Shown: positions 9,054-61,011 of the stretch, piece after piece
How positions within the stretch are numbered: position 1 is the first letter of the stretch
Layout: each line of letters starts with the position of its first letter
Assembly: GCF_003994255.1 (NCBI RefSeq)
Contig: NZ_ML133859.1
Location: 1 to 64,000, forward strand
Direction: 5' to 3'
DNA from: Brachybacterium paraconglomeratum
Lineage (GTDB): Bacteria > Actinomycetota > Actinomycetes > Actinomycetales > Dermabacteraceae
Length of the DNA: 64,000 nt
Made by a program: the position numbers and the translations under genes
The notes under the pieces: generated by a model
The model's input: only the letters and a program-made list of their open reading frames with translations
The model's database searches: none
What the model was told of the DNA's origin: nothing

Positions 9054-9132
9054 GTCTGCAGAAAGAGGACTCCAGCGGCACGCCGCGGAGCTCAGCGGCT
9101 CAGCGTGCCGCTGGAAGCCCACATCTGCAGAC
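9054..9132. repeat. Long intergenic palindrome A
   Basis: A 79-bp imperfect palindrome between the two GH51 genes. The ends are GTCTGCAG (9054-9061) and CTGCAGAC (9125-9132), and the inner arms TCCAGCGGCACGC (9071-9083) and GCGTGCCGCTGGA (9103-9115) are perfect. Two unpaired 9-nt segments sit symmetrically between them. It is closely related to palindrome B at 10911. There is no T-run. Confidence 0.85.
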
Positions 9133-9202
9133 ACGGTCGGTGGGTGCGGGTGAGTGGCGGCCCGGCCGGGGGCGCTCCACCCGGCCGGACCGTGTCAGGG
9201 GG

Positions 9203-10720
9203 TCAGGCCCGGCGGGCCAGACGGATCATCGACCAGGAGATCGCGGGCAGCGCGCCGACGAGGCGGCCGCCGTCCAGCGCGACCGAGTCGTTCGGTGCGG
9301 GCACGACGGTCTCGGGGGCGTCCTGGGTGTTCGCGGCGTAGGGGTCCTCGTGGTGGAGGGTGACGGCCTCGACCAGCTCGAGATCGCCGAAGCCGGCGAG
9401 GTCCGCGTCCAGCGCCTGCTCCCCCTCGGGCCCGCGGTTCACGACGAACACGGTCAGCGCGCCGGACTCCTCGTCCCAGGTCGCGACCGCGTCGGCCGCA
9501 GAGCTCTCCCCGAAGCGGGTGTTCTCGAAGCTCGGCGCGGTCACGCGCACGTCCAGCACCTGCCCCGCGGCGTGGCGGGAGGTGAGCGCGAAGGGGTGGA
9601 AGGTGGTCTGCTTCCAGGCCTCCCCGCCGGGTGCGGTCATGATCGGGGCGATGACATTGACCAGCTGGGCGAGGGACGCGGAGGCGACGCGGTCGCTGTG
9701 GCGCAGCAGGGAGATCAGCAGGTTCCCGAAGACGACGGCGTCCATCGCGCTGTAGGTGTCCTCGAGCAGCACCGGTGCGACCGGCCAGTCATCGCCGCTG
9801 GGCGGGCGGGACTCGGCGCGGTGCTGGTACCAGATGTTCCACTCGTCGAAGCTGATCATGATGCGCTTGTCGCGCTTGAGCTTGGCGCGCACGTGATCGG
9901 CGGTCGCGACGACGGAGTCGATGAAGTGGTCCATGTCGTCGGCCGAGGCGAGGAAGGAGGCCTGGTCGCCGTCCTTCTCCGAGTAGTAGGCGTGGGCGGA
10001 GATCATGTCGACCAGGTCGTAGGACTCGGTGAGGACCGTGTTCTCCCAGGCCGCGAAGGTCTCCATCTGCGAGCTGGAGGAGCCGCAGGCGATCAGCTCG
10101 AGGTCGGGGTCCTCCTGGCGCATGAGGCGGGCGGCCTCGGTGGCGATCCGCGCGTACTCCTCGGCGGTCTTGTGCCCGGCCTGCCAGGGGCCGTCCATCT
10201 CGTTGCCCAGGCACCACATGCGGATGCCGTAGGGCTCGGCGTGCCCGTTCTCGGCGCGCTGGTCCGAGTATGCGATGCCCTGCGGGGCATTCGCGTACTG
10301 GAGCACGTCGAGCGCCTCCTCGATGCCGCGGGTGCCGAGGTTCACCGCGTACATCGGCTCGACCTCGGCCTTGCCCGCCCAGGCCATGAACTCGTCGAGC
10401 CCGACGGTGTTGGGCTCGGTGGAGTGCCAGGCGAGGTCGTGGCGGGCGGGGCGCTCCTCGACAGGGCCCACGCCGTCCTCCCAGCGGTAGCCGGACACGA
10501 AGTTCCCGCCCGGGTAGCGCACGGAGCTCACGCCGAGCTCGCGGGTCAGGGCGAGCACATCAGTGCGGAAGCCGTCCTCGTCGGCCGAGGGGTGGTCCGG
10601 CTCGAAGATGCCGGTGTAGACGCAGCGCCCGAGGTGCTCGACGAAGGCGCCGAAGGTGCGACGGCGCACGGGCGCGACCTGGAAGGACGGGTGCAGGGTG
10701 AGGGTGACGGGCGAAGACAT
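9203..10720 (-). CDS. Alpha-L-arabinofuranosidase, GH51 (second copy)
   Basis: A classical AbfA-type intracellular arabinofuranosidase of 505 residues. The acid/base Glu174 is in [12 protein letters not shown] and the nucleophile Glu293 in [10 protein letters not shown], both in the exact family context; SAHAYYS lies between. ATG 10720 is chosen because family members begin just before this beta strand; ATG 10732 in frame overlaps the only AAGG ribosome-like site. The reading frame is open farther upstream without family resemblance. The gene is divergent from a LacI regulator and has a LacI-type operator 125 bp upstream, in the spacer of a plausible promoter, so repression lifted by an arabinose-derived sugar is likely. 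It and the first GH51 gene probably form one transcript interrupted by palindrome A. Confidence 0.94.
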
Positions 10721-10844
10721 CGGTGTCAGCATCCTTGGAGTGGGGCGGGCCGGCGATACGGCGCCGGAGCGGCGATCGACGGCGGAGCGAGGGAGCGGCG
10801 AGGTCGTGCCACCGGGCAGCTGCGCCCGGCGCGACGACCGTTTA

Positions 10845-10856
10845 TACAACGTTGCA
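10845..10856. promoter_or_regulatory. LacI-type operator in the GH51/LacI intergenic region
   Basis: TACAACGTTGCA is a near-perfect palindrome centred on ACGT/CG, the style bound by LacI-family repressors. On the minus strand it overlaps the spacer before TATAAA, a possible -10 box for the second GH51 gene. It is the only such site in the 346-bp gap between the divergent genes; the rest of the gap holds palindrome B. Confidence 0.65.
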
Positions 10857-10910
10857 AACATGCTTCCACAGGCCTGCCTCCCCGTCAACGGCGTCCCGCC
10901 GCTCCCGGGC

Positions 10911-10990
10911 TTCTGCAGAAACGGGACTCCAGCGGCACGCTGAGCCGCTCAGCCGCGCGGCATGCCGCTGCAGTCCCCTTTCTGCTGACA
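10911..10990. repeat. Long intergenic palindrome B
   Basis: An 80-bp imperfect palindrome whose 28-nt arms agree at about 25 positions. The left arm starts TTCTGCAGAAACGGGACTCC and shares about 26 of 30 bases with the left arm of palindrome A, 1.86 kb away. It lies between divergent genes, so it cannot be a simple terminator for both. Confidence 0.85.
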
Positions 10991-11066
10991 CCCCGCCCCG
11001 GCACTCTCGACACGACCTCGGTCACGTCGCGCCCCGCCCGCGCAGGACGGTGCGAGAATCGACCTC

Positions 11067-12266
11067 ATGCCCTCGAGCCCCGCGACCCGCCGCCGACGTC
11101 CGCCGTCGCTGCGCGACGTCGCCGAGCTCGCGGGCGTCTCGATCAAGACCGTCTCCAACGTGGTCAACGACTACCCCCACGTGAAGGAATCCACCCGCGA
11201 GAAGGTGCGCGAGGCGATCCTGCAGGTGGGCTACCGTCCACAGGTCGCGGCGCAGCAGCTGCGCACCGGGGCGAGCGGCATGATCACCCTCGCCGTCCCC
11301 TCGCTGGACTTCTCCTACTTCTCGAACCTCGCCCAGCAGTTCATCGAGGTGGCGCAGGAGCGCGGGCAGACGATCCTGCTGCACTCGACCTCGGCCGGGC
11401 GCGAGGCGGAGCGAACCGTGCTCGAGGGGTTCAAGCGCGTGCTCGGCGACGGGGTCATCTTCAACCCGCTGATGCTCGAGGAGGAGCTGTTCGCGCGGAT
11501 GGAGCGCACCAGCCAGCCCACCGTGTTCATCGGCGAGCACCTGCCCGAGACCCTCCCGCAGGGCAGCGACTACGTGCGCATCGACAACGTCGGCGCCGCG
11601 TACGAGGCGACCTCGCACCTGATCGCGCAGGGCCGACGGCGCCTGGCGTTCATCGGCGCGATCGACACCGCCCAGGGCAAGCAGCCCCACTCCTCCGGGA
11701 CGATGCGACGCGACGGCTTCCTCGCGGCGCTCTCCGCGCACGACCTCGGCGGCGAGCCCGCCCGGATCCAGGTCGTGGACGACTGGCGGCGCGAGGACGG
11801 CTTCGGCGGGGCGCGCGAGCTGCTCGCTCGCCATCCGGAGGTCGACGGGATCGTGTGCGGCAACGACGACCTCGCGACCGGCGCGCTCGCCATGCTGCGC
11901 CGCCTGGGCCGGCGCGTGCCCGAGGACGTCGCCGTGATCGGCTACGACGACACCCCCGACAGCCCCTTCACCATCCCGTCGCTGTCCACCATCGCGCCGG
12001 ACAAGCTCACCCTCGCCGCGACCGCGCTGGACCTGCTCGCCGAGCGGATCCAGGGCTACGACGGCCCGCCCCGCACGATCGACACGTCGTACTCGCTGGT
12101 CGTGCGCGAGTCCACGGTGCCGATTGCCGTCGAGGCGTCGCCGGAGGCGCCCACCCCGTCGGCGGCCGCCGAAGCCGCCCCGTCGACCGCTCCCCCGGCT
12201 CCCGGCGCCGTCCTGCCCGAGTCCGAACCCACTGCCCGCCCCGAGAACGAGGAGCTCCCCCGGTGA
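11067..12266 (+). CDS. LacI-family transcriptional regulator
   Basis: A 399-residue repressor. The N-terminal LacI helix-turn-helix is [21 protein letters not shown] (its core is within residues 14-35), followed by the hinge and a periplasmic-binding-like effector domain ending near residue 350 ([19 protein letters not shown] is the typical C-terminal dimer strand). The last 45 or so residues are a Pro/Ala/Glu-rich tail not found in usual family members, which end near 340. It is divergent from a GH51 gene with an operator between them, so it probably controls arabinofuranosidase expression. Its stop codon overlaps the GTG of thyA (GTGA), an unexpected coupling of a sugar repressor with nucleotide synthesis. 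Confidence 0.9.
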
Positions 12267-13066
12267 CGATCCCGACCCCCTACGAGGACCTGCTGCGCGA
12301 GGTCCTGGAGACCGGCCACGCCAAGGGCGACCGCACCGGCACCGGCACCCGCAGCCTCTTCGGCAAGCAGATCCGCTACGACCTCTCCGAGGGGTTCCCG
12401 CTGATCACGACCAAGCGCGTGCACACCCGCTCGATCATCGTGGAGCTGCTGTGGTTCCTGCGCGGGGAGACGAACATCGGCTACCTCCACGAGCACGACG
12501 TGACGATCTGGGACGAGTGGGCGGATCAGAACGGCGACCTCGGCCCGGTCTACGGGGCGCAGTGGCGCTCCTGGCCCACGCCGGACGGCGGCGTGATCGA
12601 CCAGATCACCGACGTGGTCGAGCAGATCCGCATCAACCCCGACTCGCGGCGCCTGATCGTCTCGGCCTGGAACCCGGCGGACATCCCGCAGATGGCGCTC
12701 GCGCCCTGCCACGCCCTGTTCCAGTTCGAGGTGCACGACGGGAAGCTCTCCTGCCAGCTGTACCAGCGCAGCGCCGACCTGTTCCTCGGCGTGCCCTTCA
12801 ACATCGCCAGCTACGCGCTGCTCACGCACATGGTCGCCCAGCAGACGGACCTCGAGGTGGGCGACTTCGTGTGGACCGGCGGGGACTGCCACATCTATGA
12901 CAACCACGTCGAGCAGGTGGAGCGGCAGCTCTCCCGCGAGCCCTACCCGTACCCCGAGCTGCGCCTGAACCGTCGGCCCGACTCGATCCTCGAGTACGAG
13001 CCCGAGGACATCGAGATCGTCGGCTACCAGCACCACCCGGGCATCAAGGCGCCGGTGGCCGTGTGA
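12263..13066 (+). CDS. thyA: Thymidylate synthase
   Basis: Converts dUMP to dTMP with methylene-tetrahydrofolate, giving dihydrofolate. It is 267 residues, close to the 264 of E. coli ThyA. The catalytic Cys149 lies in [10 protein letters not shown]; the dUMP/folate sites [26 protein letters not shown] and [13 protein letters not shown] are all present. The GTG start at 12263 overlaps the stop of the preceding LacI gene, with GAGGAG a few bases upstream. It overlaps folA by four bases (GTGA). The thyA-folA pair is a common functional unit, since DHFR recycles the dihydrofolate that ThyA makes. Confidence 0.97.
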
Positions 13067-13665
13067 GCGCGGCCGACGGGACGAACAGCGCAGGCGCAGC
13101 CCCTGGCACCAGCCCGGCCGATGCGCGCGAGACGGGCGCGGCCGACGGGACGACCGCGCCGCGGATCGGCATGATCTGGGCGCAGGCGCGCGGCGGGGTG
13201 ATCGGCGACGGCGGCACCATGCCCTGGCACCTGCCCGAGGACCTGAAGCACTTCAAGCGCACCACCTCCGGCTCCCCCGTCGTGATGGGGCGGCGCACCT
13301 GGGAGTCCTTCCCGCCGAGGTTCCGCCCCCTGCCGGGGCGGACGAACATCGTCATCACCCGCGACGACTCCCTCGACCTGCCCGGCGCGGTGCGCGCCCG
13401 CTCGCTGCCGGAGGCGCTCGAGCTCGCCGCGACCGAGGCGGGCCCGACAGGGACCACCTGGGTGATCGGCGGCGGCTCGATCTACGCCGACGCGATCGAG
13501 GTCGCCGAGCAGCTGGTCGTCACCGAGATCGACCTCGAGGTCGACGGGGACACCCTCGCTCCCCGGATCCCCGCGGAGTTCGCGGTCACCGCCGCCGAGC
13601 CCGCAGAAGGCTGGCACGAGGCCACGAACGGGCTGCGCTACCGGATCCTCACCTACTCGCGCTGA
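13063..13665 (+). CDS. folA: Dihydrofolate reductase
   Basis: Reduces dihydrofolate to tetrahydrofolate with NADPH. The catalytic domain spans about residues 35-200: [33 protein letters not shown] (with the substrate-binding acid), [12 protein letters not shown] and [13 protein letters not shown], which are the standard DHFR blocks. The GTG start overlaps the thyA stop. That start gives an Ala/Gly/Thr-rich leader of about 34 residues not found in ordinary DHFRs and containing two copies of the frequent word GCCGACGGG. There is no convincing internal start, because the domain begins at once with PRIGM. The leader may be a recently grown spacer; it should be disordered. Confidence 0.94.
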
Positions 13666-13721
13666 GCCGCCTTTCGTCCGGACACGTCGACTCTCCAGGG
13701 CATTACGTCATCGACCTCCCG

Positions 13722-14687
13722 TCACCCCTTCGGAGAGGAGTGGCGCGCCGCGAGATCCGCGGCGAGCTCGCCGATCCTCCTGCGCGCGGCGTCCGGAGCG
13801 AGCACCTCGATGTGGTCGCCGAACTGGAGGAGCTGCCGCACCGACTCCACGTCGGGATAGCCCACCACCACGGTGCGTGAGCCGTGCTCCGGAGGCGAGA
13901 CCTCGAGGATCCGCAAGCCGAGAATCCGACGGGCCAGGTCGAGGCGGTCCTCCGCCAGGCGGGCGGTGACGCGCACCCGCACCTGCCCCTCGGTGCGTTC
14001 TTTCAGCGCAGCCCAGCTGCTGCGCAGGGTTTCGCCCGGTGCATGCGTCGCGTCGTCCTCGAGCTCCTCGTAGGCCGCGAGCCGTTCCAGGGAGAACAGT
14101 CTCCCCTCCCCCTCGTCATCGGCCACGAGGTACCAGCGGCCGGACTTCGCCACGAGGCCGTACGGGTCGACGATCCGGGTCGACGGCATGGTCTCGCTGC
14201 TGCGTCGGTACCGGATGCGCAATCGCCGACGTCGGCGGAGCGTCGAGGCCAGCTCCGCGACGTCCACCGTCGCCGCCGAGCCGGCGAACCAGGCCGCGCT
14301 GTCCACCAGCACCAGGTCCGCGAGCCCCGGACGATCCTCCGACTCCGGCGCGGCGAACCGGCGGGAGGCGATCTTCCGGGCGGCGGTCTCCCATACGTTC
14401 GACAGCCCCATGAGGTCGAGCTGCGCCGGGTCAAGCCCAGCGACGGAGAGTGCTTCCAGCTCGGGCGGGTCCAGGTAGGAGACGTTCAGCCTCGCGCCGG
14501 GGAGCAGGACGATCCCGCCCGTGCGTCCGCGCTCCGCGTAGACGGGCACTCCCGCCGCCGAGAGCGCCTCGACGTCACGCAGCACCGTCCGCCGGGACAC
14601 CTCGAGGCGCTCGGCGAGCTCGACGGTAGTGAGGCGCTGTCGGACCTGCAGGAGCAGCAGGAGATGCAGCAGTCGCGAGGCCTTCAT
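13722..14687 (-). CDS. WYL-domain transcriptional regulator with N-terminal HTH (YafY type)
   Basis: A 321-residue regulator from ATG 14687. The N-terminal DeoR-like winged helix reads LTTVELAERLEVSRRTVLRDVEAL, and the middle holds a WYL-type domain with LRIRYRRSS, IVDPYGLVAKSGRWYLVADD and RLFSLERL; the C-terminal extension ends near RRRIGELAADLA. Such proteins sense small ligands or nucleic acids. Longer in-frame starts exist but precede the helix-turn-helix with unrelated sequence. It is divergent from the VOC gene, and the perfect palindrome GACAGGCCCTGTC lies between the two starts, so it probably regulates itself and the VOC gene. Confidence 0.88.
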   Translation of the reverse strand: MKASRLLHLLLLLQVRQRLTTVELAERLEVSRRTVLRDVEALSAAGVPVYAERGRTGGIVLLPGARLNVSYLDPPELEALSVAGLDPAQLDLMGLSNVWETAARKIASRRFAAPESEDRPGLADLVLVDSAAWFAGSAATVDVAELASTLRRRRRLRIRYRRSSETMPSTRIVDPYGLVAKSGRWYLVADDEGEGRLFSLERLAAYEELEDDATHAPGETLRSSWAALKERTEGQVRVRVTARLAEDRLDLARRILGLRILEVSPPEHGSRTVVVGYPDVESVRQLLQFGDHIEVLAPDAARRRIGELAADLAARHSSPKG

Positions 14688-14711
14688 GTCGTCGATGCTC
14701 GCAGAAAACAT

Positions 14712-14724
14712 GACAGGCCCTGTC
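14712..14724. promoter_or_regulatory. Candidate operator of the WYL regulator
   Basis: GACAGGCCCTGTC is a perfect 13-bp palindrome, 25 bp before the WYL start and about 58 bp before the VOC start. GACA-N5-TGTC is a plausible dimer site. Assignment is by position only. Confidence 0.55.
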
Positions 14725-14781
14725 GCGATACGGCGGTCGACTGGGCCAGTCCAGAAAGATCGACGACTCGAGGAGTGCTCC

Positions 14782-15147
14782 GTGCCCGCACCGAACCTGT
14801 TCCTGATCGGCGTCCGTGACGCCGAGGCCGCCACCGACTTCTACTCCGATCTGCTCGAGATCGCTCCGTCCTTCGTCAGCCCTCGCTACGTGGCGTTCGA
14901 CGTCGCCCCCGGCGTGCTGTTCGCGCTGTGGACCGGCTACGGCGATCGCGTCGACCCGGACGTCCCGCGGACGAGCGAGGTCGGGCTCATGGTGCCGGGC
15001 CCGCCCGAGACGATCGACGAGCTCTACACGACCTGGGCAGCGAAGGGGGTCCGGGTCATCGAGGAACCGCACGACGCCGTCTTCGGACGCACCTTCGTCA
15101 TCGCGGATCCAGACGGTAATTACCTCAGGGTCTCCCCCGTCGACTGA
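14782..15147 (+). CDS. VOC-superfamily protein (glyoxalase/bleomycin-resistance fold)
   Basis: A single-module vicinal-oxygen-chelate protein of 121 residues, the usual size. It begins with APNLFLIGVRDAEAATDFYSDLL, the typical first beta-alpha unit, and ends with TFVIADPDGNYLRVSPVD, the typical last strand with the Asp-Pro-Asp-Gly turn. The GTG start at 14782 follows GAGGAG by a good distance, and the longer upstream frame is rejected. Function cannot be fixed: family members include lyases, dioxygenases and antibiotic-binding proteins. Divergent partner of the WYL regulator; its end overlaps that of the convergent FAD gene by 28 bases. Confidence 0.85.
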   Translation: MPAPNLFLIGVRDAEAATDFYSDLLEIAPSFVSPRYVAFDVAPGVLFALWTGYGDRVDPDVPRTSEVGLMVPGPPETIDELYTTWAAKGVRVIEEPHDAVFGRTFVIADPDGNYLRVSPVD

Positions 15148-16418: not shown

Positions 16419-16539
16419 GGGCTGCCTCCTGCGGGACGGGGCCGCCGCGTGCCGGCGACCGTCCCTCCATCCCAGGCCAGGTGAGCGCGGGGAGGCAAAC
16501 CCGTGTGACCTATGCGGCGTCCCCGCTGGACACCGCCGC

Positions 16540-17035: not shown

Positions 17036-17150
17036 CCCCGCGGGTGAAGCCGTTCTCCGGCACGACCGGCCGTTCGTCGGCGTGGACGCCGGGCCGACAG
17101 CGGCCCCGCGTCCGTTTCGTCCGATGCCCTCCATGACATCGGTCACCAGG

Positions 17151-18377: not shown

Positions 18378-18405
18378 GCGCCGCGCGCGGAGGCGGACAC
18401 CCCGA

Positions 18406-18419: not shown

Positions 18420-18449
18420 GAGCGGGTGGTCACCTGGTTCAGTGACTCC

Positions 18450-22701: not shown

Positions 22702-22738
22702 GCGGCCGACGGGACGGGCGACCCGTTCCGTCGGCCGC
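22702..22738 (+). terminator. Terminator-like hairpin after araA
   Basis: GCGGCCGACGGGACGGG and CCCGTTCCGTCGGCCGC form a 17-bp stem with one G/A position and a CGA loop. The stem is built on two inverted copies of the word GGCCGACGG found in several other hairpins here. No T-run follows. Confidence 0.8.
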
Positions 22739-22772: not shown

Positions 22773-22844
22773 TCGACAGCTTTTGCTGCCGCCAGGACTC
22801 ATGCGGGCCCCCACATGGGTCCTGGCGGTACATTTCCTGCGATA
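22773..22844. repeat. Long intergenic palindrome C
   Basis: A 72-bp imperfect palindrome. The core arms CCGCCAGGACTCATG (22789-22803) and CATGGGTCCTGGCGG (22814-22828) differ at one position, and pairing continues outward with mismatches. It lies between araA and the oxidase gene, beyond the araA terminator. AGGACTCAT also occurs in palindrome D and ACTCATG in palindrome E. Confidence 0.8.
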
Positions 22845-38241: not shown

Positions 38242-38264
38242 CCCCCGAGGCTATCGGGGGCCGC

Positions 38265-38326
38265 AGGTTCTGCGCCGCTGAGGACTCATCTCGTCGCCGG
38301 CACGGGTCCTCAGCGGTGCAGAACCT
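38265..38326. repeat. Long intergenic palindrome D
   Basis: A 62-bp palindrome with 25-nt arms matching at 22 positions: left arm AGGTTCTGCGCCGCTGAGG at 38265-38283 continuing to 38289, right arm ending GGTGCAGAACCT at 38326. It lies in the 347-bp gap between divergent genes, which otherwise holds palindrome E and the pxpA promoter region. Confidence 0.88.
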
Positions 38327-38386
38327 CGGCTCCGGCCCTCGGTGCGGGGCCGCACCAGCCACCGCCGCCCCGGACCCCGGCCGGCC

Positions 38387-38448
38387 AGGTTCTGTGCCGG
38401 TGGCGACTCATGTCGCGGCGTCCATGAGTCGTCCCGGGTGCAGAAGGT
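38387..38448. repeat. Long intergenic palindrome E
   Basis: Also exactly 62 bp, 122 bp after the start of D. The innermost CGACTCATG/CATGAGTCG is perfect and the outer arms pair with mismatches; the left arm opens AGGTTCTG as in D. D and E are thus related copies whose stems differ on both arms. Confidence 0.85.
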
Positions 38449-38588
38449 CGGGGGAACGCTCGCGCGCCGGGGCATGCGAACGCGCGGCATGACGCCCGCG
38501 CGTCCCGTCGGACGCAGGGCGGGATGACGCCTGCGCGGTCGGGGCCGACAATGGGGAGGACCCCGCCGTCGGACGAAGGAGCCCGCCC

Positions 38589-39353: not shown

Positions 39354-41110
39354 AGGACCGGGCAACGGACACCCTCCCTCCCCCGCTGCGCGTGCACCGC
39401 GCCGGGGAGACCAGCGTCCTCGCCGAGTATCCCGACACCGCCGCGGTGCTCGCCGCGGCCGCGGCCGTGCGCGCCCTCTCCCCCGCACACCTGCTGGAGC
39501 TCGTCCCCGCCGAGCGCACCCTGCTGCTGCACGGCGCTGCGCCGCGCGACGTGCGAGAGCTCGCGGACCTGCTCTCGCAGCTCCCCCGCTCCGCGCGCGA
39601 GGACAGCGACGGCGGCGAGGCCAGCATCGGCATCGTCTACGACGGCGAGGACCTGGAGGAGGTCGCGGAGCTGCTCGGGATGAGCAAGGACGTGCTGATC
39701 AGCGCGCATTCCGGGGCGACGTGGACGGTCGCCTTCGGCGGCTTCGCGCCCGGCTTCCCCTATCTCGTCGCCGGCGATCCCCACGAGGCGTCCGGCCCGC
39801 CCTGGGAGGTGCCGCGCCGCGCCGAGCCCCGCACGTCGGTGCCCGCAGGCGCCGTCGGCCTCGCCTCCCGCTACTGCGGCATCTACCCGCGCCCCTCTCC
39901 CGGCGGCTGGCAGCTGATCGGCCGCAGCGACGCGCCCCTGTTCGACGTGCACCGGGAGCCGCCCGCACTGCTCAGCCCCGGCACGCGGGTGCGCTTCACG
40001 CCGCAGCGCGCCGCCTCACGTCCGACCGCCGCGACCGCCGCGGCGCTGGCCCGCGCCGCGCGGGAGGCCGCGGCCGTCCCCGCCCGGCTCGGGCTCCATC
40101 GCGGCGCGGGCCCGGGCACGAGCTCCCGTCCCGCGCTCGAGATCCTCTCCCCTGGTCCGCTGGCCCTGATCGAGGACGCCGGCAGGCCCGGCCGGGCATC
40201 GATCGGCGTGAGCCGGTCCGGGGCCTTCGACCGCGGCGCCCTGCAGCGCGCGAATCGCGCCGTCGGCAATCCCTCCGGCGCCGCCGCGCTCGAGATCCTG
40301 CTGGGACCGCTCGCGCTGCGCGCCGCCGCGCCGACGGTCGTCGCCGTCTCCGGCGCGCAGGCCCCGGTGCGGATCGGGCGCGGCGACGACGAGGTCGGCG
40401 ACGTGGAGCTGCCGGCCGACGCCTCCCGCGAACGCGCCCTCGCCCTGGACCCCGGCGACCGGATCGAGGTGGGCCCGGCCGCGGACGGGCTGCGGCTGGT
40501 CCTCGCGGTCCGGGGCGGGATCACGCAGGTGAGGCGGCAGGATCCCGCCGACGACGAGCTGCTCGAGGTGCTCGGCGCACGCTCCCGCGACACCCTCTCC
40601 GACCTCGGCCCGGATCCGCTGCAGGCCGGCGACCTGCTGCTCGTCGGCCCCGAGCGCGGCCTCGACGCGGTGCCGGCCGCCGGGGACGCCGTCCCGCCGT
40701 CGTCGGCCGAGCATCCCGACGAGGACACCATCCGCATCGCCGTGCTCATCGGGCCGCGCGCCGAGCTGCTCGGCGACGAGGCGGTCGAGGCGCTGCTCGG
40801 CACGGACTGGACGGTGCGGCAGGAGTCCGACCGGGTCGGGGTGCGGCTCGATGGGCCGGTGCTCCCGGTCCCCTCGGGTGCGGCGACCGTGCCGAGCGAG
40901 CCGATGCTGCCCGGGGCGGTGCAGGTGCCGCCCTCGGGGCTCCCGGTCGTCTTCGGCCCCGACCACCCCACCACCGGCGGCTATCCGGTGATCGCCGTGG
41001 TCACGCGGGAGGGTCTGGACCGCCTCGCCCAGGCCGGGCCGGGCACACGCCTGCGCTTCGTCACCACGGACGGCGACGGGACGCGCTGGTCGCCACCCGC
41101 CCGCCGATGA
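39350..41110 (+). CDS. 5-oxoprolinase subunits B and C fused in one chain
   Basis: A 586-residue fusion of the PxpB (KipI-like) and PxpC (KipA-like, urea-amidolyase-related) subunits. Residues about 14-235 are PxpB: TSVLAEYPD, then SGATWTVAFGGFAPGFPYL and LASRYCGIYPRPSPGGWQLIG. Residues about 260-580 are PxpC: EILSPGPLALIEDAGRPGRASIGVSRSG (partly cited), NRAVGNPSGAAALEILLGPL and the closing GYPVIAVVTREGLDRLAQAGPG. Between them is an Ala/Arg-rich linker. GTG 39350 overlaps the pxpA stop. The longer upstream frame is a pxpA shadow. In E. coli B and C are separate genes; fused forms occur in actinobacteria. Confidence 0.92.
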   Translation: MKDRATDTLPPPLRVHRAGETSVLAEYPDTAAVLAAAAAVRALSPAHLLELVPAERTLLLHGAAPRDVRELADLLSQLPRSAREDSDGGEASIGIVYDGEDLEEVAELLGMSKDVLISAHSGATWTVAFGGFAPGFPYLVAGDPHEASGPPWEVPRRAEPRTSVPAGAVGLASRYCGIYPRPSPGGWQLIGRSDAPLFDVHREPPALLSPGTRVRFTPQRAASRPTAATAAALARAAREAAAVPARLGLHRGAGPGTSSRPALEILSPGPLALIEDAGRPGRASIGVSRSGAFDRGALQRANRAVGNPSGAAALEILLGPLALRAAAPTVVAVSGAQAPVRIGRGDDEVGDVELPADASRERALALDPGDRIEVGPAADGLRLVLAVRGGITQVRRQDPADDELLEVLGARSRDTLSDLGPDPLQAGDLLLVGPERGLDAVPAAGDAVPPSSAEHPDEDTIRIAVLIGPRAELLGDEAVEALLGTDWTVRQESDRVGVRLDGPVLPVPSGAATVPSEPMLPGAVQVPPSGLPVVFGPDHPTTGGYPVIAVVTREGLDRLAQAGPGTRLRFVTTDGDGTRWSPPARR

Positions 41111-43489: not shown

Positions 43490-43600
43490 GTTGTTCGACG
43501 ACCGGTACCACGCCGCAGAGGTTGTTCGACGTCCGGTACCAGTTTCCTGGTACCGGACGTCGAACAACTGGCGCGGTCCTGGTACCCGACGTCGATCAAC
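43490..43600. repeat. Nested four-arm palindrome F
   Basis: Arms at 43490-43510 and 43521-43542 read GTTGTTCGACG(A/T)CCGGTACCA; arms at 43547-43568 and 43579-43600 are their inverted copies. The inner pair is a perfect 22-bp stem with a 4-nt loop (TTTC); the outer pair matches with three differences. It occupies the centre of the 359-bp gap between convergent genes; the rest of the gap is GC-rich with GAGCCCGG repeats and no gene. Confidence 0.93.
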
Positions 43601-53558: not shown

Positions 53559-53593
53559 CCCCGACGCTCCCCCGTCGTCCGGCCGACGACGAT

Positions 53594-53650
53594 TGCGCTC
53601 CTGGCGTGACCTCGGGGCCGTATGGCAGGTGAGGTCACGCCAGGAGCGCA
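53594..53650. repeat. Long intergenic palindrome G (perfect stem)
   Basis: TGCGCTCCTGGCGTGACCTC (53594-53613) is repeated as an exact inverted copy at 53631-53650 around a 17-nt loop. It lies between convergent genes, 35 bp after the SMP-30 stop and 33 bp before the putP stop, so it could terminate both, though no T-run flanks it. Confidence 0.93.
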
Positions 53651-53682
53651 GAATTATGCGGCCCGGGCCGGGGTGGCCGCGC

Positions 53683-55245
53683 TCAGGACGCGGTCGTCGC
53701 CTCCGCCGAGCGGTCGCGGGCCACGCCGGTGGCGAGGGAGTCGAGCATGTCGTCGTACTCCTCCATCGCCTTGGCGGGCGGCTGCGGGGTGATCAGGCTG
53801 ACCACGACCGCGAGCACGAGGCAGATCGCGAAGCCGGGGATGATCTCGTACAGGTGCTCTCCGCCGAAGAGGCCCAGGGTGACATCGAGAGGCTGCTTCT
53901 CCGCACCCCAGGACTGGCCCCAGACGAAGGCGACCACCGCACCGGCGACCATGCCCACGGCGGCCCCGGCCATGGTGAGCCGTCGCCAGAACAGCGACAG
54001 CAGCACGATCGGCCCGAAGGCGGCGCCGAAGCCCGCCCAGGCGAAGGCGACCAGCGCCAGCACCGAGCTCCCGGGATCCAGGGCCAGGATCACCGCGATG
54101 ACGGAGACCACGAGCACGCCGACCCGTCCGCCCCACAGCTTGGCGCCGTCGCCGAGCTTCACGCCCACACCGCCGACGATGTCCTCGACCAGCGCGGAGG
54201 TGGTCACGATCAGCTGCGAGGAGATCGTGGACATGATCGCCGCGAGCACGGCCGCCAGCAGGACGCCGGCGATCAGCGGATGGAACAGGATCTGGGCCAG
54301 GTCGAGGAACACCGATTCGCCGTTGGTCGCATCGGTGATCTGCACGTCCCGGTTCTGCTGGAAGTAGGCCAGGCCCGCCATCGCGGTGAACACGGCGCCG
54401 GTCACGCACAGGATCATCCAGCTCATCCCGACGATCGTGCCGTACTTCGCGTCGCGCGAGGAGCGCAGCGCCATGAAACGCACGATGATGTGGGGCTGGC
54501 CGAAGTAGCCCAGGCCCCAGGCGACGGCGGAGAGGATCCCCACCCACGTGCCGCCGGAGACGAGGGAGCCGAAGGAGGGGTCGACCTCGCGCACCGAGGC
54601 GAACATCGCCGTCGGCCCGCCGACGACGAACATCGCGGTGACCGGCACGATGATCAGGGAGACCAGCATGATCAGGCCCTGCACCACGTCGGTGTAGCTC
54701 GCACCGAGGAAGCCGCCGAAGAGGGTGTACAGGATCGTCACGCCGCCCACGAGGAGCAGGCCGGTCAGGTAGGGCCCGCCGAACATCGACTGGAAGAACA
54801 CGCCGCCGGCGACCATGCCGGAGGAGACGTAGAAGGTGAAGAACACCAGGATGATCAGGCCCGCTGCGATCCGGAGGATGTTCGTGCGGTCGTGGAGGCG
54901 GTTGCCGAAGTAGCTCGGCACCGTGATCGCGTTGCCGGCGATCTGGGTGTACTGGCGCAGGCGCGGGGCGACGAAGATCCAGTTCAGACCGGCGCCGACG
55001 GTCAGGCCGATCGCGATCCACGCCTCGACCATGCCGCTCATGTACAGCGCGCCGGGCAGGCCCATCAGCAGCCAGCCGGACATGTCCGAGGCCCCTGCCG
55101 AGAGCGCCGCGACGAAGGGGTGCAGCTGTCGGCCGCCGAGCATGTAGTCCTCGCCGCCCTTGGTCTTGCGGAAGGCGTACAGGCCGATGCCGATCATGGC
55201 GCCGAAGTAGACGGCGAGCGCGACCAGCTTGAAGGCGAGCTCCAT
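53683..55245 (-). CDS. putP: Sodium/proline symporter
   Basis: A 520-residue member of the sodium:solute symporter family with 13 helices. The family opening VYFGAMIGIGLYAFRKTK, GASDMSGWLLMGLPGALYMSG (sodium and proline site), GGFLGASYTDVVQGLIML and AAVLAAIMSTISSQLIV are all typical of PutP rather than of pantothenate or glucose members. It imports proline with sodium for nutrition or osmoprotection. ATG 55245 has GGAGACC; the extra in-frame stretch to 55305 has no resemblance. No proline catabolic genes adjoin it. Confidence 0.92.
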   Translation of the reverse strand: MELAFKLVALAVYFGAMIGIGLYAFRKTKGGEDYMLGGRQLHPFVAALSAGASDMSGWLLMGLPGALYMSGMVEAWIAIGLTVGAGLNWIFVAPRLRQYTQIAGNAITVPSYFGNRLHDRTNILRIAAGLIILVFFTFYVSSGMVAGGVFFQSMFGGPYLTGLLLVGGVTILYTLFGGFLGASYTDVVQGLIMLVSLIIVPVTAMFVVGGPTAMFASVREVDPSFGSLVSGGTWVGILSAVAWGLGYFGQPHIIVRFMALRSSRDAKYGTIVGMSWMILCVTGAVFTAMAGLAYFQQNRDVQITDATNGESVFLDLAQILFHPLIAGVLLAAVLAAIMSTISSQLIVTTSALVEDIVGGVGVKLGDGAKLWGGRVGVLVVSVIAVILALDPGSSVLALVAFAWAGFGAAFGPIVLLSLFWRRLTMAGAAVGMVAGAVVAFVWGQSWGAEKQPLDVTLGLFGGEHLYEIIPGFAICLVLAVVVSLITPQPPAKAMEEYDDMLDSLATGVARDRSAEATTAS

Positions 55246-55454
55246 GAGGGTCTCCGATCTCTGGTGGGGAAGGGCGGACGGGCCGGATCGGAGGTCCGTG
55301 CGCAACGTCGTCGCTCGTGGGCCGCCGGTCCGGTCGGGGACGACGCGCCACCGTACCGGCGCCCGGGGAGGGCAGGTGCCGCGAATCCTACGCCGGGGTG
55401 ACGCCGATCACCTCGTTCTGTGTCCGGACGGTGACCTCGGCGCGGACGCACGAA

Positions 55455-55482
55455 CGCCCGGCACCCCTCGGGATGCCGGGCG
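55455..55482 (-). terminator. Terminator of the glycerol operon
   Basis: CGCCCGGCA (55455-55463) and TGCCGGGCG (55474-55482) form a perfect 9-bp stem with a 10-nt loop, 23 bp beyond the glpK stop on the minus strand and upstream of the putP start. Confidence 0.75.
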
Positions 55483-55505
55483 TCCGCCGGTCGTCGATCG
55501 GCTGA

Positions 55506-57050
55506 TCAGCCGAACAGAGCCTCGGTGTCGTCGTCGATCCAGTCGAGGGTCCGCTCGACGGCCTTGCGCCACAGGCGCATGTACCGGTCGCGGGTCTCCT
55601 CGTCCATCTGGGGCTCCCAGCGCTTGTCCTCGGCCCAGTTGTCGATGACGTCCTGCTCGCCCTCCCAGTAGCCCACCGCGATGCCGGCGGCGTAGGCGGC
55701 GCCCAGCGCGGTGGTCTCGATGACCTTCGGGCGCACGACGGGCACTCCGAGGATGTCGGCCTGGAACTGCATGAGGGTCTCGTTCATGACCATGCCGCCG
55801 TCGACCTTGAGCTCGGTGAGCTCCACGCCCTCGGAGGCCGCATCGGCGATCGCCGCGTCGAGGACCTCGCGGGACTGGAAGGCCGTGGCCTCGAGCACGG
55901 CGCGGGCGATGTGGTTCTTGTTGTGGAAGCGGGTCATGCCGACCATCACGCCGCGGGCGTCGGAGCGCCAGTGCGGGGCGAACAGGCCCGAGAACGCCGG
56001 GACCACGAACAGGCCGCCGTTGTCGTCGACCTGCTTGGCCAGGTCCTCGATCTCCGGGGCGTCCTTGATCAGGCCGAGGTTGTCGCGGATCCACTGCACG
56101 AGCGAGCCGGTCACCGCGACCGAGCCCTCGAGGGCGTAGACGGGCTTGTTCTCGCCGATCTTGTAGGCGACGGTGGTGAGCAGCCCGTTCTCGCTGCGCA
56201 CCAGGTCCTCGCCGGTGTTGACCAGCATGAAGTTGCCGGTGCCGTAGGTGTTCTTGCCCATGCCGATCTCGAAGCAGGCCTGGCCGAACGTGGCGGCCTG
56301 CTGGTCGCCGAGGATGCCGGCGATCGGGGTGTCGATGAGCAGATCGTTCTTGCGGCCGTGCCCGTACACCTCGGAGGAGGACTTGATCTCCGGGAGCATC
56401 GACATCGGGATGCCCATGTCCTTCGCGATGTCCTCGTTCCAGTCAAGGGTGTCGATGTTCATGAGCATGGTGCGCGAGGCGTTGGTGACGTCGGTGACGT
56501 GCACGCCGCCGTTCACGCCGCCGGTCAGGTTCCACACCAGCCAGGAGTCGGTGTTGCCGAACAGCAGGTCGCCGGCCTCGGCCCTCTCGCGCGCGCCGTC
56601 GACGTTCTCGAGGATCCAGGCGATCTTGGGGCCGGAGAAGTAGGTCGCCAGCGGCAGGCCCACGCGCTCCTTGTACTTGTCGGCGCCCTCATCGCCGGCG
56701 AGGCGGTCGCAGATCTTCTGGGTGCGGGTGTCCTGCCAGACGATCGCGTTGTAGACGGGCTCGCCGGTGTTCTTGTCCCACACCACCGCGGTCTCGCGCT
56801 GGTTGGTGATGCCGACGGCGGCGAGCTGGTGGCGGTTGATCTCCGCGCCGGTCAACGCCGAGCCGACGACCGAGCGCGTGTTGCGCCAGATCTCCATCGG
56901 GTCGTGCTCGACCCAGCCGGACCTGGGGAAGATCTGCTTGTGCTCCTGCTGGCCGGTCGAGACGATCTGGCCGGCGTGGTCGAAGACGATCGCGCGGGTC
57001 GAGGTGGTGCCCTGGTCGATCGAGAGGATGTACTTCGTCGAGTCGGTCAT
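55506..57050 (-). CDS. glpK: Glycerol kinase
   Basis: Phosphorylates glycerol to sn-glycerol 3-phosphate. The 514-residue FGGY protein has [32 protein letters not shown], the substrate loop [27 protein letters not shown] and [19 protein letters not shown], the standard GlpK set. The ATG at 57050 follows AAGGAG. It lies 99 bp after glpF and ends in a hairpin terminator. It is third in glpD-glpF-glpK. Confidence 0.97.
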
Positions 57051-57149
57051 CGGAACTCCTTCGTGGTGATGAACGGGTGGTGGTCATGGTGCCGGACGGC
57101 CCCGCGCGGCGCACGGGAACCGCCCGGCGGTGGAGGGGTGCGGGCCGGG

Positions 57150-57869
57150 TCAGAAGGCGAAGCTCGCCAGGCCGGCGAGGACGCCGCCGACGATCGGGCC
57201 GGCGATCGGGACCCACGAGTAGCTCCAGTCGCTGCTGCCCTTGTGCGGGATCGGGAGGATCGCGTGGGCGAGGCGGGGGCCGAGGTCACGGGCGGGGTTG
57301 ATGGCGTAGCCGGTGGGCCCGCCGAGGGAGGCGCCGATCGAGACGACCAGCAGCGCGACCGCGAGGGGGCCGAGACCGCTCGGAGTGCTGCCGAACATGA
57401 TGATCACGAGCACCAGCACGAAGGTCGCGATGACCTCGGTGACGAAGTTCCAGCCGTAGGAGCGGATCTCCGGACCGGTGGAGAAGGTGCCGAGGATCGT
57501 TCCCGCATCCGTCTCCTGGTCGTAATGGGTCTTGTACGCGAGCCAGGCGACGATCGCGCCGAGGAAGCCGCCGATCAGCTCCGCAAGCAGGTACGCGATC
57601 GTGCTGCCGGCGGTGACGGCGATCCCGGGGGCGTACTCCGCGGCGCCGCTGGAGAGCAGGCCGAGGGTCACCGCGGGGTTCAGGTGGGCGCCGGTCTTGT
57701 AGGCGACCCACACGCCGGCGAAGACCGCGAGGCCCCAGCCGAAGTTGATCATCAGCCAGCCGCCGCCGTTGCCCTTCGTCTTGCCGAGGATCGCGTTGGC
57801 GACGACACCGCCGCCGAGCAGGGTGAGCATCGCCGTTCCGGCGATCTCGTACAGAAAGATGGTTGCCAT
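57150..57869 (-). CDS. glpF: Glycerol uptake facilitator (aquaglyceroporin)
   Basis: A 239-residue MIP-family channel with six helices. Both NPA boxes are present, HLNPAVTLGLLSSG and YAINPARDLGPR; the second is followed by the Asp/Arg that mark glycerol channels. GWGLAVFAGVWVAYKTGAH leads into the first half-helix. ATG 57869 follows GAGGAG; the earlier in-frame start is discarded. It lies between glpD and glpK on the same strand, completing uptake, phosphorylation and oxidation of glycerol. Confidence 0.94.
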   Translation of the reverse strand: MATIFLYEIAGTAMLTLLGGGVVANAILGKTKGNGGGWLMINFGWGLAVFAGVWVAYKTGAHLNPAVTLGLLSSGAAEYAPGIAVTAGSTIAYLLAELIGGFLGAIVAWLAYKTHYDQETDAGTILGTFSTGPEIRSYGWNFVTEVIATFVLVLVIIMFGSTPSGLGPLAVALLVVSIGASLGGPTGYAINPARDLGPRLAHAILPIPHKGSSDWSYSWVPIAGPIVGGVLAGLASFAF

Positions 57870-57957
57870 GGGGTCTCCTCGTCGAGCGGCCCCGCAGCTC
57901 TGCGGGACCGGTGGCATCCAGTTGGTGGGGAGAGGGGTGGGTCCTGCCCGCCGATGG

Positions 57958-58013
57958 TCCGCGGGCGGAGTCGCCCGCGGAGAGCCTCCCCGGCCGGATC
58001 ACGGCCGGGGAGG
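57958..58013 (-). other. Two hairpins between glpD and glpF
   Basis: TCCGCGGGCG/CGCCCGCGGA (57958-57981) and CCTCCCCGGCC/GGCCGGGGAGG (57985-58013) lie side by side 10 bp after the glpD stop. Their place inside the operon suggests partial termination or mRNA processing that uncouples glpD from glpF-glpK levels. Confidence 0.65.
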
Positions 58014-58022
58014 AGTTCTGGG

Positions 58023-59765
58023 TCAGCCGCGGCCGGGCACCTCCGCGGCGGCCGCGATGCGGGAGGCGGCCTCGGCGTCGGAGGCGGTGGCCTCACCGGC
58101 GAGGCGGGCCTCGATGTACCCGCGGTAGGCCTCGACCTCGGCGCGCACGGCCGTCTCGTCCCAGCCGAGCTCCGGCGCGAGCAGCGCGGCGACCTCGTCG
58201 GCCGCCGCGACGCCGCGGTCGCGGGTCTCGTAGTCCAGGCGGGTGCGGCGCTCGAGCACGTCGGCGAGGTGCCGGGCCCCCTCGGCGCGGGCGGCATAGA
58301 CCACCTCGGCGCGCAGGTAGCGCGGGGCATGCTCGAGCGGGGTCGCGAGCGAAGGATCCTCGTCGATCAGGGCGAGCACGTCGGTGAGCAGGCTGCCGTA
58401 GCGGAACAGGAGCCGGTCGACCCGGATCTCGTCGGCGCCGAGCCGGCGGCTGATCTCAGACTTGTCGCGCACCAGGGCCGCGTAGCCCTGCGCGCCGATG
58501 ACGGGGACCGAGCGGGTCAGCGACGGACGGCCGGGCTCGGTGTCCTTGATCGCGAAGTCGACGACGTCTTCGGCCATCACGCGGTAGGTCGTGTACTTGC
58601 CGCCCGCGATGGCGCTCAGGCCGGGTTCGACCTGCATGACGGTGTGCTCGCGGGAGACCTTGGTCGAGCCCTTGTCCGAGCCCTTCTTCACGGGCTGCAG
58701 CAGGGGGCGGAGGCCCGAGTAGACGCCGATGACGTCCTCGCGGGTGAGGTCGTTCTTCAGCACGGCGTTGGCGTGCTCGAGGACGTAGTCGATGTCGTCC
58801 GAGGTGGCGCCCACGTGGCGGGGGTCCTCGGTCCAGGGGGTATCGGTGGTGCCGATGACCCAGTACTCGTCCCACGGGATGATGAACAGCACCGACTTCT
58901 CGGTCTGGGTGATGATGCCGGTGTCGGGGACGGCGGGGATCCGGTCGCGGGCGACGGTGACGTGGATGCCCTTGGAGGCGAGGACCTCGAGGCCGCCGTC
59001 GGCCCCGGCGAGCTCCTGCTGGTCCTGGGTCCAGACGCCGCCGGCGAGGATGACGTGGCGGGCGCGGACATCGAACTCCTCGCCGCTCTCCTCGTCGCGC
59101 ACCCGGGCGCCGACCACGCGCTCACCCTCGTGGAGGTAGTCGACGACGGTGGTGTAGTTCGCGACCGAGGCGTCGAGCTGGGCGGCGGAGCGCACCAGCA
59201 TCATCACGAAGCGGGCGTCGTCCATCTGCGCGTCGTAGTACTCGAGCGCGCCGACGGCCTTGTCGCCGTCGAGCGCCGGGAACACCTCGAGCATCTTGTC
59301 GTGCAGGAGATGGCGGTGGAAGGGGACGGCGCGCTTGCGGCCCACCGACTGCATCACGTCGTAGAGCATGACGCCGGAGCCGATGAAGCCGCGGTCGATG
59401 ACCTTCTTGAAGAAGGGGAAGACGAACTTGATCGGCTTCACCAGGTGCGGGGCGGTGTGCTCGAGCAGCAGATCGCGCTCGCGCAGCGCCTCGGCGACCA
59501 GCTTGAAGTCGAGCATCTGCAGGTAGCGCAGGCCGCCGTGCATGAGCTTGGAGGAGCGGGAGGAGGTGCCGGAGGCCCAGTCGTGGGACTCCACGAGGCC
59601 GACGGACAGGCCGCGGGTCGCGGCGTCGAAGGCGGCGCCCGCCCCGTTCACCCCGCCGCCGACGACGAGGACGTCCAGCGGGTTCTCGGCGGTCGTGGCG
59701 CGCAGGCGGGCGAGGTGCTCGCCGCGGCCCTCGGGGGTGAGTGCGGATCGCTGCTGTTCGGACAC
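58023..59765 (-). CDS. glpD: Glycerol-3-phosphate dehydrogenase, FAD-dependent
   Basis: Oxidises glycerol 3-phosphate to dihydroxyacetone phosphate at the membrane, passing electrons to quinone. The 580-residue protein has VLVVGGGVNGAGAAFDAATR (FAD), SSKLMHGGLRYLQ, the substrate arginine region, LFIIPWDEYWVIGTTDTPW and LSAIAGGKYTTYRVMAED, followed by the C-terminal helical cap. GTG 59765 follows AGGAG by eight bases; the open frame to 59945 is non-homologous. First gene of the glp operon, divergent from a SorC-family regulator, with a TGCAC-type inverted repeat between them. Confidence 0.95.
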   Translation of the reverse strand: MSEQQRSALTPEGRGEHLARLRATTAENPLDVLVVGGGVNGAGAAFDAATRGLSVGLVESHDWASGTSSRSSKLMHGGLRYLQMLDFKLVAEALRERDLLLEHTAPHLVKPIKFVFPFFKKVIDRGFIGSGVMLYDVMQSVGRKRAVPFHRHLLHDKMLEVFPALDGDKAVGALEYYDAQMDDARFVMMLVRSAAQLDASVANYTTVVDYLHEGERVVGARVRDEESGEEFDVRARHVILAGGVWTQDQQELAGADGGLEVLASKGIHVTVARDRIPAVPDTGIITQTEKSVLFIIPWDEYWVIGTTDTPWTEDPRHVGATSDDIDYVLEHANAVLKNDLTREDVIGVYSGLRPLLQPVKKGSDKGSTKVSREHTVMQVEPGLSAIAGGKYTTYRVMAEDVVDFAIKDTEPGRPSLTRSVPVIGAQGYAALVRDKSEISRRLGADEIRVDRLLFRYGSLLTDVLALIDEDPSLATPLEHAPRYLRAEVVYAARAEGARHLADVLERRTRLDYETRDRGVAAADEVAALLAPELGWDETAVRAEVEAYRGYIEARLAGEATASDAEAASRIAAAAEVPGRG

Positions 59766-59884
59766 GCTGGCTGCTCCTTCGCATCGGCACCTGGTGATCC
59801 CGGCGCTCGCGGCCGGGCCGTCGCGCTCTCCGCGGCGGTGACGCGGCCATCCTCGGACGGGCGTGCAGCACCGCGCAAGCCAGG

Positions 59885-59898
59885 TGCACGAACGTGCA
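59885..59898. promoter_or_regulatory. Candidate operator of the glycerol operon
   Basis: TGCACGAACGTGCA is an inverted repeat with perfect 5-bp halves, 13 bp before the regulator start and 120 bp before glpD. A degenerate second site (TGCAGCACCGCGCAAG) lies beside it at about 59867-59882. Position between divergent genes points to the SorC regulator as ligand. Confidence 0.65.
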
Positions 59899-59910
59899 AG
59901 ACTGGTGTCC

Positions 59911-60870
59911 ATGACCCCCGCTTCCCGGCTCGAGGACCTCTTCACCGCTGCACGGATGTACTACGGGCAGAGCCAGACCATGGAGGCGATCGCCGGGGAG
60001 CTCGGGGTGTCCCGCTCGACGGTCTCGCGGATGCTGCGCGATGCCCGCGAGGCAGGTCTGGTCCAGATCACCCTGCGCCCGCCCGAGGCGCATCGCGTGG
60101 AGGACCTCGGACGACGCATCGCCCGTCAATACGGGGTGAAGGTGCACGTGGTGCCGGATCCGCCCGAGGGTGATCAGCGCGACCGCCTCGCCGCCGTGGT
60201 CGAGGAAGCCGCGGAGCTGCTCGATCAGATGCTCGAGCCCGGTTCCACGCTCGGCATCGCCTGGGGCACGACGGTCGCGGCGCTGTTGGGCGCGGTGCGA
60301 CCCCGCCCCGTGCCCGGGATGCGGATCGTGCAGCTCAACGGCGCGATCAACGTCGAGGGCTCGGGCCTGACCTATATCGCCACCGTGCTCGCCCGGGCGG
60401 CGGAGCGATGGGACGCGACGGTGCACCAGTTCCCGGTCCCGGCCTTCTTCGACTACGCCGCGACGCGCGAGGCGATGTGGCACGAGCGCTCGGTGCAGCG
60501 GGTGCTGGAGACGCAGACGCAGGCCACGGTCGCGGTGTTCAGCGTCGGCGCCTTCGACGCGGAGGTCCCCAGCCACGTCTACACCCACAACTACCTCACG
60601 GCCGCCGACCTGCGCTCGCTGCGGGCCGACGGCGCGGTGGGCGATGTGTGCACCGTGTTCCTGCGGGCCGACGGCACCTTCCGAGACATCGCCATGAACG
60701 CGCGCGGCTCGGGCACCGCCCCGGACCGGCTGGCCCGGATCCCGCGGCGTCTCCTGGTCGCCTCGGGCTCCCGCAAGGCGCTGCCGCTGCGGGCGGCACT
60801 GCGGGCCGGGGTCGCGACGGACCTGGTCATCGACGCGGTCACCGCCACGGCGCTGCTGGCCCTGCGCTGA
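59911..60870 (+). CDS. SorC-family regulator, probable controller of glp genes
   Basis: A 319-residue sugar-binding regulator. The helix-turn-helix is MEAIAGELGVSRSTVSRMLR at about residues 24-43, followed by a SorC effector domain with GSTLGIAWGTTVAALLGAV (phosphosugar loop), VQLNGAIN and VAVFSVGAFD. ATG 59911 is preferred; the longer frame starts inside the operator. It is divergent from glpD-glpF-glpK and probably responds to glycerol 3-phosphate or dihydroxyacetone phosphate. Glycerol genes are usually under DeoR-type GlpR or IclR-type GylR, so a SorC protein here is less common. The second SorC regulator of the window (49880) is only distantly similar. Confidence 0.88.
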   Translation: MTPASRLEDLFTAARMYYGQSQTMEAIAGELGVSRSTVSRMLRDAREAGLVQITLRPPEAHRVEDLGRRIARQYGVKVHVVPDPPEGDQRDRLAAVVEEAAELLDQMLEPGSTLGIAWGTTVAALLGAVRPRPVPGMRIVQLNGAINVEGSGLTYIATVLARAAERWDATVHQFPVPAFFDYAATREAMWHERSVQRVLETQTQATVAVFSVGAFDAEVPSHVYTHNYLTAADLRSLRADGAVGDVCTVFLRADGTFRDIAMNARGSGTAPDRLARIPRRLLVASGSRKALPLRAALRAGVATDLVIDAVTATALLALR

Positions 60871-60955
60871 GGCGACCCGCCCTGCTCTGCACGGCAGCAC
60901 CTCTGCCCTGCCCCAGCCCCACGACGCCGTCCGCCGGCTCCCATCCTCGCGACGC

Positions 60956-61011
60956 CGAGACGTGGCTATGTGTCGGTATGGCGGCGGATAACGACACAGA
61001 TCCACGTCTCG
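60956..61011. repeat. Long intergenic palindrome H
   Basis: CGAGACGTGG (60956-60965) and CCACGTCTCG (61002-61011) pair perfectly; after a 3-bp mismatch TGTGTCG/CGACACA and TAT/ATA continue the stem around the loop GGCGGCGG. It is 56 bp, between convergent genes, in a 251-bp gap that holds nothing else. Confidence 0.88.

Follow-up and report, generated by a model that had tools for sequence, protein, structure and literature searches.

Eight long intergenic palindromes, here called A to H, lie in the first 64,000 nucleotides (the window) of contig NZ_ML133859.1 of Brachybacterium paraconglomeratum (GCF_003994255.1, a genome of 3.78 Mb in 30 contigs, below G000). We think that they probably belong to two-part systems, each made of a gene for a predicted Vsr-like nuclease, with its own palindromes on one side or both, and of further copies dispersed through the genome, in which the nuclease would recognise, maintain and occasionally spread the palindromes. 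Read at the level of sequence, nuclease genes are bracketed by palindromes, each nuclease in G000 goes with a palindrome family of its own, dispersed copies are present in some relatives and missing from others, their stems change in pairs, and a short stem box is typical of the species. The eight had been taken for one family in an initial annotation of this DNA; they fall into five (A/B, C/D/E, F, G and H).

Vsr-like nuclease genes between the palindromes

In three genomes, two A/B-family palindromes spaced by about 1 kb have between them a gene with a Vsr-like PF18741/DUF559 domain, and C/D/E-like pairs upstream of an aspartokinase gene enclose another PF18741/DUF559-type gene in three genomes; in a fourth, G001 (locus L118), a nuclease-domain match lies between two copies where no gene was called. 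The comparison set comprised 38 Brachybacterium genomes including G000 (G001, G010, G012, G025 and G034 are others in it), and L numbers such as L112, L118 and L286 denote individual loci fetched from the compared genomes. The A/B and C/D/E nucleases belong to separate subfamilies: L112 (A/B) is 20-21% identical to L118 and L119, which are related to the C/D/E nuclease. Six flanked genes run through Pfam matched PF18741/PF04480, with one PF18741 score above the curated cut-off and the rest below it, and so the assignment as nucleases rests also on a shared profile and on structure. The fold of the modelled nuclease is Vsr/EDxHD-like with the conserved acidic and histidine residues of EDxHD/Vsr endonucleases, and the closest solved relative of its nuclease domain is the EDxHD homing endonuclease I-Bth0305I. 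The nuclease units that were read lie in gaps between called genes, and no intron, intein or interrupted gene was seen in them.

A search of G000 with a profile of 28 nucleases gave, besides a 1565-aa fusion, seven small genes with a Vsr/DUF559/EDxHD-type domain, all of which have palindromes beside them:

G000 C1:869435, nuclease locus of the A/B family
G000 C5:223909, nuclease locus of the G family
G000 C1:424732, nuclease locus of the F family, with arrays found upstream only
G000 C5:96146, nuclease locus of the C/D/E family
G000 C4:172662, nuclease locus with palindromes matching no window element
G000 C12:78856, nuclease locus with palindromes matching no window element (the downstream palindrome alone is convincing, the other match being a G-run)
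G000 C2:142200, nuclease locus with palindromes matching no window element

A nuclease gene with two palindromes beside it was also found on contig C18 of G025.

The frequency of bracketing was assessed at 40 nuclease loci drawn from the genus PF18741 matches listed, taken for the most part by rank but passing over some rows; frames above 1000 aa were excluded and three G000 loci were added, one of them already known to lie beside an F array. Seven loci found by other routes enlarged this to a set of 47. An intergenic palindrome of score at least 15 is held by 30 of the 40 loci (a score of 14 corresponds to about 13 consecutive paired bases, or more with mismatches), and such palindromes have a density of 0.376 per kb, whereas the remainder of these loci has 0.040 per kb and the window 0.156 per kb. 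With the whole fetched locus searched, homologous copies flank the gene on both sides at 22 of the 40 loci and at 26 of the 47. Among 183 control genes of 450-1500 bp, for which palindromes were sought within 1 kb on each side, none had homologous palindromes on both sides and 57 had some palindrome of score 13; the 1518 bp alpha-L-arabinofuranosidase gene of the window, just over this length limit, would have counted as positive.

Five palindrome families in the window and the genome

The window elements are as follows:

9052..9135, plus strand: element A, A/B family (model R1), common to the orthologous site in G025
9069..9073, plus strand: left 5-bp stem box in A, ACTCC; the orthologous G025 copy has CTCTG
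9113..9117, plus strand: right-arm partner of the box in A, CTTCC in minus-strand reading
10909..10992, plus strand: element B, A/B family; the flanks of B exist in G025, with no A/B-family copy listed there
22773..22843, plus strand: element C, C/D/E family (model R2)
38260..38331, plus strand: element D, C/D/E family, missing from the orthologous gap in G025
38382..38453, plus strand: element E, C/D/E family, in a divergent gap common to D
43490..43600, plus strand: element F, a nested palindrome made of inverted GTTGTTCGACGTCCGGTACCA units
53594..53650, plus strand: element G, with a 20-bp perfect stem; its family flanks the nuclease gene G000:C5:223909-224751
60956..61011, plus strand: element H, of a three-copy family whose others are at C5:172384 and C12:43044

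All eight inverted repeats are present where the initial annotation had placed them, none of the eight overlaps a gene (genes in the window were called with our own codon-usage gene caller), and the gaps are of the types it gave, tandem for A and C, divergent for B, D and E and convergent for F, G and H. The excess over randomised intergenic DNA that it had named as a check was also found, with 11 intergenic palindromes of score at least 14 in the window compared to one in total across 30 first-order Markov resamplings of the window's 9.5 kb of intergenic DNA. These 11 are A, B, C, D, F, G and H together with four absent from its list, near 22702, 47114, 48544 and 63960; a twelfth window palindrome, near 40048, is inside a gene. 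Element E is more mismatched and lies under the cut-off of 14, and the model R2 gives it 72 bits, E having itself helped to build that model. No Rfam family matches any of the eight elements at the gathering threshold. The sole Rfam match in the window is a thiamine pyrophosphate (TPP) riboswitch (RF00059, 33457-33563, minus strand, 61.1 bits). Elements A and B bracket the alpha-L-arabinofuranosidase gene (9203-10720), and a second gene of its Pfam family adjoins (7387-9009).

A BLAST search with A in G000 returned B and more copies on other contigs. The covariance model R1 (84 bp, A/B family, built from 15 copies) picks out 15 places in G000 and, at an E of 0.1 or better, has matches in 17 of the 38 genus genomes, G000 counted. 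For R2 (C/D/E family, built from seven copies, E among them) the figures are 16 places in G000 and 28 of the 38 genomes with matches. The words TTCTGC and GGACTC are common to the A/B and C/D/E families. Multi-copy arrays of the F family occur at further G000 loci, one adjoining the nuclease gene G000:C1:424732-425634, and the family is BIME-like (resembling bacterial interspersed mosaic elements), one array that was read having 31-bp tandem units on each side in opposite orientation. A long F-type palindrome at G000:C3:229778-230083 (L127 3779-4084) has 31-bp tandem units and an N run at its centre. Element G is 83% identical over 59-65 bp to palindromes beside one nuclease gene. At L364 3274-3440 (G000:C5), a C/D/E-family and an H-family copy stand about 40 bp apart in one gap.

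None of 34 G000 copies (15 A/B, 16 C/D/E and 3 H) is centred in a called gene, and two reach into the end of a gene, by 11 and 37 bp. They lie in 19 tandem, 10 convergent and 5 divergent gaps, roughly matching the background of gaps of at least 100 bp in the same loci (72 tandem, 20 convergent and 26 divergent), so that the initial view of the palindromes as not simply terminators holds. A role in transcription termination or in mRNA stabilisation, by several kinds of hairpin, would fit their length and GC-richness and the convergent gaps of F, G and H, but it would not fit the 5 divergent and 19 tandem copies, and it leaves family identity and the bracketing of nucleases unexplained, and we regard it as very improbable. 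The initial comparison to repetitive extragenic palindromic (REP) or BIME-like elements, as a class with evolving stems, stands in that the palindromes are dispersed, intergenic, multi-copy and patchy and show paired stem change; what is not supported is a single family of all eight. Palindromes were found at contig ends in some fragmented genomes (for example L119 and L171), and for this reason they may break assemblies.

Gain and loss between relatives

Some copies are missing from orthologous gaps in relatives. The G025 gap orthologous to that of D and E has neither element; it measures 151 bp compared to 348 bp and keeps recognisable bases at both edges, and the gap upstream of the same gene held no palindrome in 28 further genomes (synteny untested; L231 was unreadable). 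A copy in G034 is missing in G010, and a copy common to G010 and G034 is missing in G012, where the flanks are 94-98% identical. Where G010 and G034 carry the nuclease unit, G012 instead has different DNA that contains no long palindromes. For the C/D/E family at least 4 of the 16 G000 copies share flanks with a fetched G025 locus, only some G025 loci having been fetched; at one of these four, G000 C12:51783, the G025 gap (L386 4955-5265, G025:C7) holds a different long palindrome.

A nuclease lies within 1.5 kb upstream of the aspartokinase gene in 12 of 30 genomes, three of which had less than 600 bp searchable, and the slot holds unlike nucleases in G000 and G025 (64% versus 31% identical to one reference) despite aspartokinases that are 97% identical. 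This would fit if some other enzyme spread the palindromes and the nuclease genes homed into them as safe targets, bracketing then being the result of insertion into an existing palindrome. An esterase gene in G010 (L286) likewise lies between two same-family palindromes where its relatives G012 and G034 have a single one, which fits genes being gained or lost between copies. Under such homing, however, one outside enzyme would not be expected to make each of the different families beside the seven G000 nucleases, and no transposase was found among the bracketed and neighbouring genes run through Pfam, a small part of the neighbourhood; we consider it a decidedly unlikely explanation. No HUH-type or REP-associated tyrosine transposase (RAYT) was met beside the palindromes, the whole genome not having been searched for HUH transposases.

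Paired stem change, the species-typical box and their interpretation

The stems had been noted to differ on both arms, and this proved to be paired change in both larger families. Among the 16 C/D/E copies in G000, 12 of 22 stem pairs are changed on both sides in some copy, with 41 paired-change cells compared to 19.6 in shuffles; the TTYTG box on the outside and the GAC box on the inside hardly vary, and the part between them varies freely but stays mostly paired. The A/B family has 15 paired-change cells compared to 4.9 in shuffles, and seven doubly changed pairs, a count matched by 36 of 500 shuffles.

At 13 orthologous A/B sites compared between G000 and G025 (two G000 and three fetched G025 copies without an orthologue being omitted), loops (0.795 versus 0.668) and outer arms (0.782 versus 0.681) are closer between orthologues and carry no species signal. 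A 5-bp box in the middle of the stem is species-typical on both arms, with a within-minus-between difference of 0.237 reached in none of 400 label swaps. The commonest left box is ACTCC in G000 (6/13) and CGTCC in G025 (6/13), and the box starts with CG in G025 on the left arm at 11, on the right arm at 10 and on both at 10 of the 13 sites, and in G000 at none; site p4 has ACGTG in both genomes. Copies adjoining the nuclease bear the typical box of their own genome. In the C/D/E family, in a comparison not made between orthologous sites, the inner box is mostly TCA-like in G000 (mixed, with some arms misread by the pattern) and in four G025 copies, and is CGA or CGG in all 12 copies from four other genomes.

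That ten loci should share a change of the same neighbouring two base pairs on each arm is not readily explained by independent mutation. It follows either from short repair tracts that carry the box from arm to arm and copy to copy, or from strong selection on the sites to track a protein that has changed. The Vsr protein after which these nucleases are named works in very short patch repair, and as the nuclease is of the Vsr kind, copying by repair tracts is plausible. We therefore favour a mechanism in which the nuclease, either dimeric or acting on an extruded hairpin, would bind the conserved boxes of the palindrome and nick there; short repair tracts, templated by the other arm or by another family member, would keep the arms paired and, upon a change of specificity, would carry a new box through the family, and rare ectopic repair would seed new copies in intergenic DNA.

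Several points weigh against this nuclease-driven reading. Cleavage and transposition by the nuclease are what we infer from sequence. In the set of 47 loci, the family is limited to one side at 14, and 7 have no palindrome of score 13 (L118 is among these 7, and there the model finds two copies, both under the palindrome cut-off). Bracketing is not unique to nucleases, being seen for the esterase in G010 and for the arabinofuranosidase between A and B, and the palindromes may be recombination points for host genes. No nuclease was found beside the three copies of H. Palindrome similarity does not follow nuclease similarity overall (rank correlation 0.074, permutation p 0.1, 33 loci), palindromes being shared only among the closest nucleases. 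Outside the genus, 15 of 29 nuclease loci have no palindrome of score 13, nor does the homologue in Tessaracoccus. The gaps at absent sites have diverged too far to place the insertion boundaries or the target-site duplications that would mark a MITE with a DDE transposase. The box also keeps a locus signal (orthologues 0.515 versus 0.357, p 0.0024), so that its replacement is incomplete; the A/B family moves little, with 13 of 15 G000 copies at orthologous G025 sites (two judged from one flank only); and the N-terminal half of one modelled protein has a weak Foldseek match to AbiEi (E 2.5e-3, rmsd 7.2).

The species-typical box at orthologous sites, the A/B copies that mostly stay in place and the weak AbiEi likeness would all suit palindromes that are operators of an AbiEi-like regulator with an incidental nuclease domain, which would repress itself through the flanking copies while dispersed copies form a selected host regulon, their boxes tracking the specificity of the protein. 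We find this account unlikely, as 10 of the 34 copies lie in convergent gaps where promoter control is improbable, a duplex operator would not need the self-complementary middle stem that nevertheless varies in paired fashion, and the presumed catalytic residues are invariant in 45 homologues. Between the paired copies that were read there is at most one called gene and no partner toxin was seen, AbiEii not having been specifically searched for.

On our best reading, by analogy, the organisation of nuclease and palindromes works as in the REP/RAYT system (REPtron), with a PD-(D/E)XK-type nuclease replacing the HUH tyrosine transposase. One account has RAYTs always flanked by two REPs, with complementary stem changes preserved (PMC2817692), and this and a second describe flanking palindromes, dispersed copies and a different palindrome class for each enzyme (PMC2817692, PMC3733652), all of which are likenesses to the systems found here. 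Unlike in REP/RAYT, the flanked gene here encodes a Vsr-type nuclease and not an HUH tyrosine transposase of the IS200/IS605 kind. Unlike in REPs, which have a GTAG (or CGTC) tag at one end, GTAG is absent from the outer 12 bases in 8 of 8 family representatives. CGTC/GACG occurs in 4 of 8. The palindromes are longer (about 45-110 bp compared to 20-40 bp in PMC3733652) and have fewer copies (3 to 16 in G000 for those families that were counted, compared to usually more than 100 in PMC2817692). In TIRtrons, TIRYT genes are flanked by terminal inverted repeats unrelated to REPs, some of which are also dispersed families (PMC3733652); the enzyme-linked flanking repeats and dispersed families are shared, but TIRYTs are tyrosine transposases of the IS200/IS605 kind. 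The systems described here are not members of the REPtrons or TIRtrons, as enzyme and end tag differ, and have a design principle in common with REPtrons. No palindrome system met in the literature searched agrees with them in enzyme class, two-arm box and lineage.

Among solved structures the nuclease domain is nearest to that of I-Bth0305I, which recognises a very long target site as a dimer (PMC3943268); unlike for EDxHD or free-standing homing endonucleases, no interrupted gene was seen and the targets would be dispersed intergenic palindromes. AbiEi antitoxins of type IV toxin-antitoxin systems may share the N-terminal half, on the weak resemblance of the model, and some nuclease homologues have PF13338, an AbiEi-type domain, but here a nuclease domain is fused. 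Vsr-like DUF559-group proteins are of the same Pfam group, and work on one from Caulobacter concerns cytosine methylation and DNA damage, with palindromic repeats unmentioned in the part of the paper seen (PMC12907096).

More tentatively, and with somewhat more doubt than belief, we propose a new class of selfish DNA, widespread among actinobacteria, in which a Vsr-type nuclease homes on its own palindromes and rewrites their both-arm box genome-wide by very short repair patches; enzyme and sites would change specificity in step, and the loop and flanks of each site would persist. REP elements with their RAYTs are regarded as a single family that depends on a single enzyme, and if a wholly different nuclease made the same arrangement, palindrome-enzyme partnerships would be a recurrent solution. 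If true, a large group of actinobacterial genes labelled 'DUF559' or 'endonuclease domain-containing' would gain a testable role, and the species-typical two-arm box would be a natural experiment on a DNA-cutting enzyme and its dispersed sites changing specificity together.

Such nucleases are carried, at E 1e-10, by 112 of 148 genomes of the class (G000 included). Outside the genus, a palindrome of score at least 13 was found at 14 of the 29 loci and one of score at least 15 at 11, and 7 loci have copies on both sides. A GATCATG core is common to the palindromes at the non-genus nuclease genes L343, L347, L350, L353 and L354.

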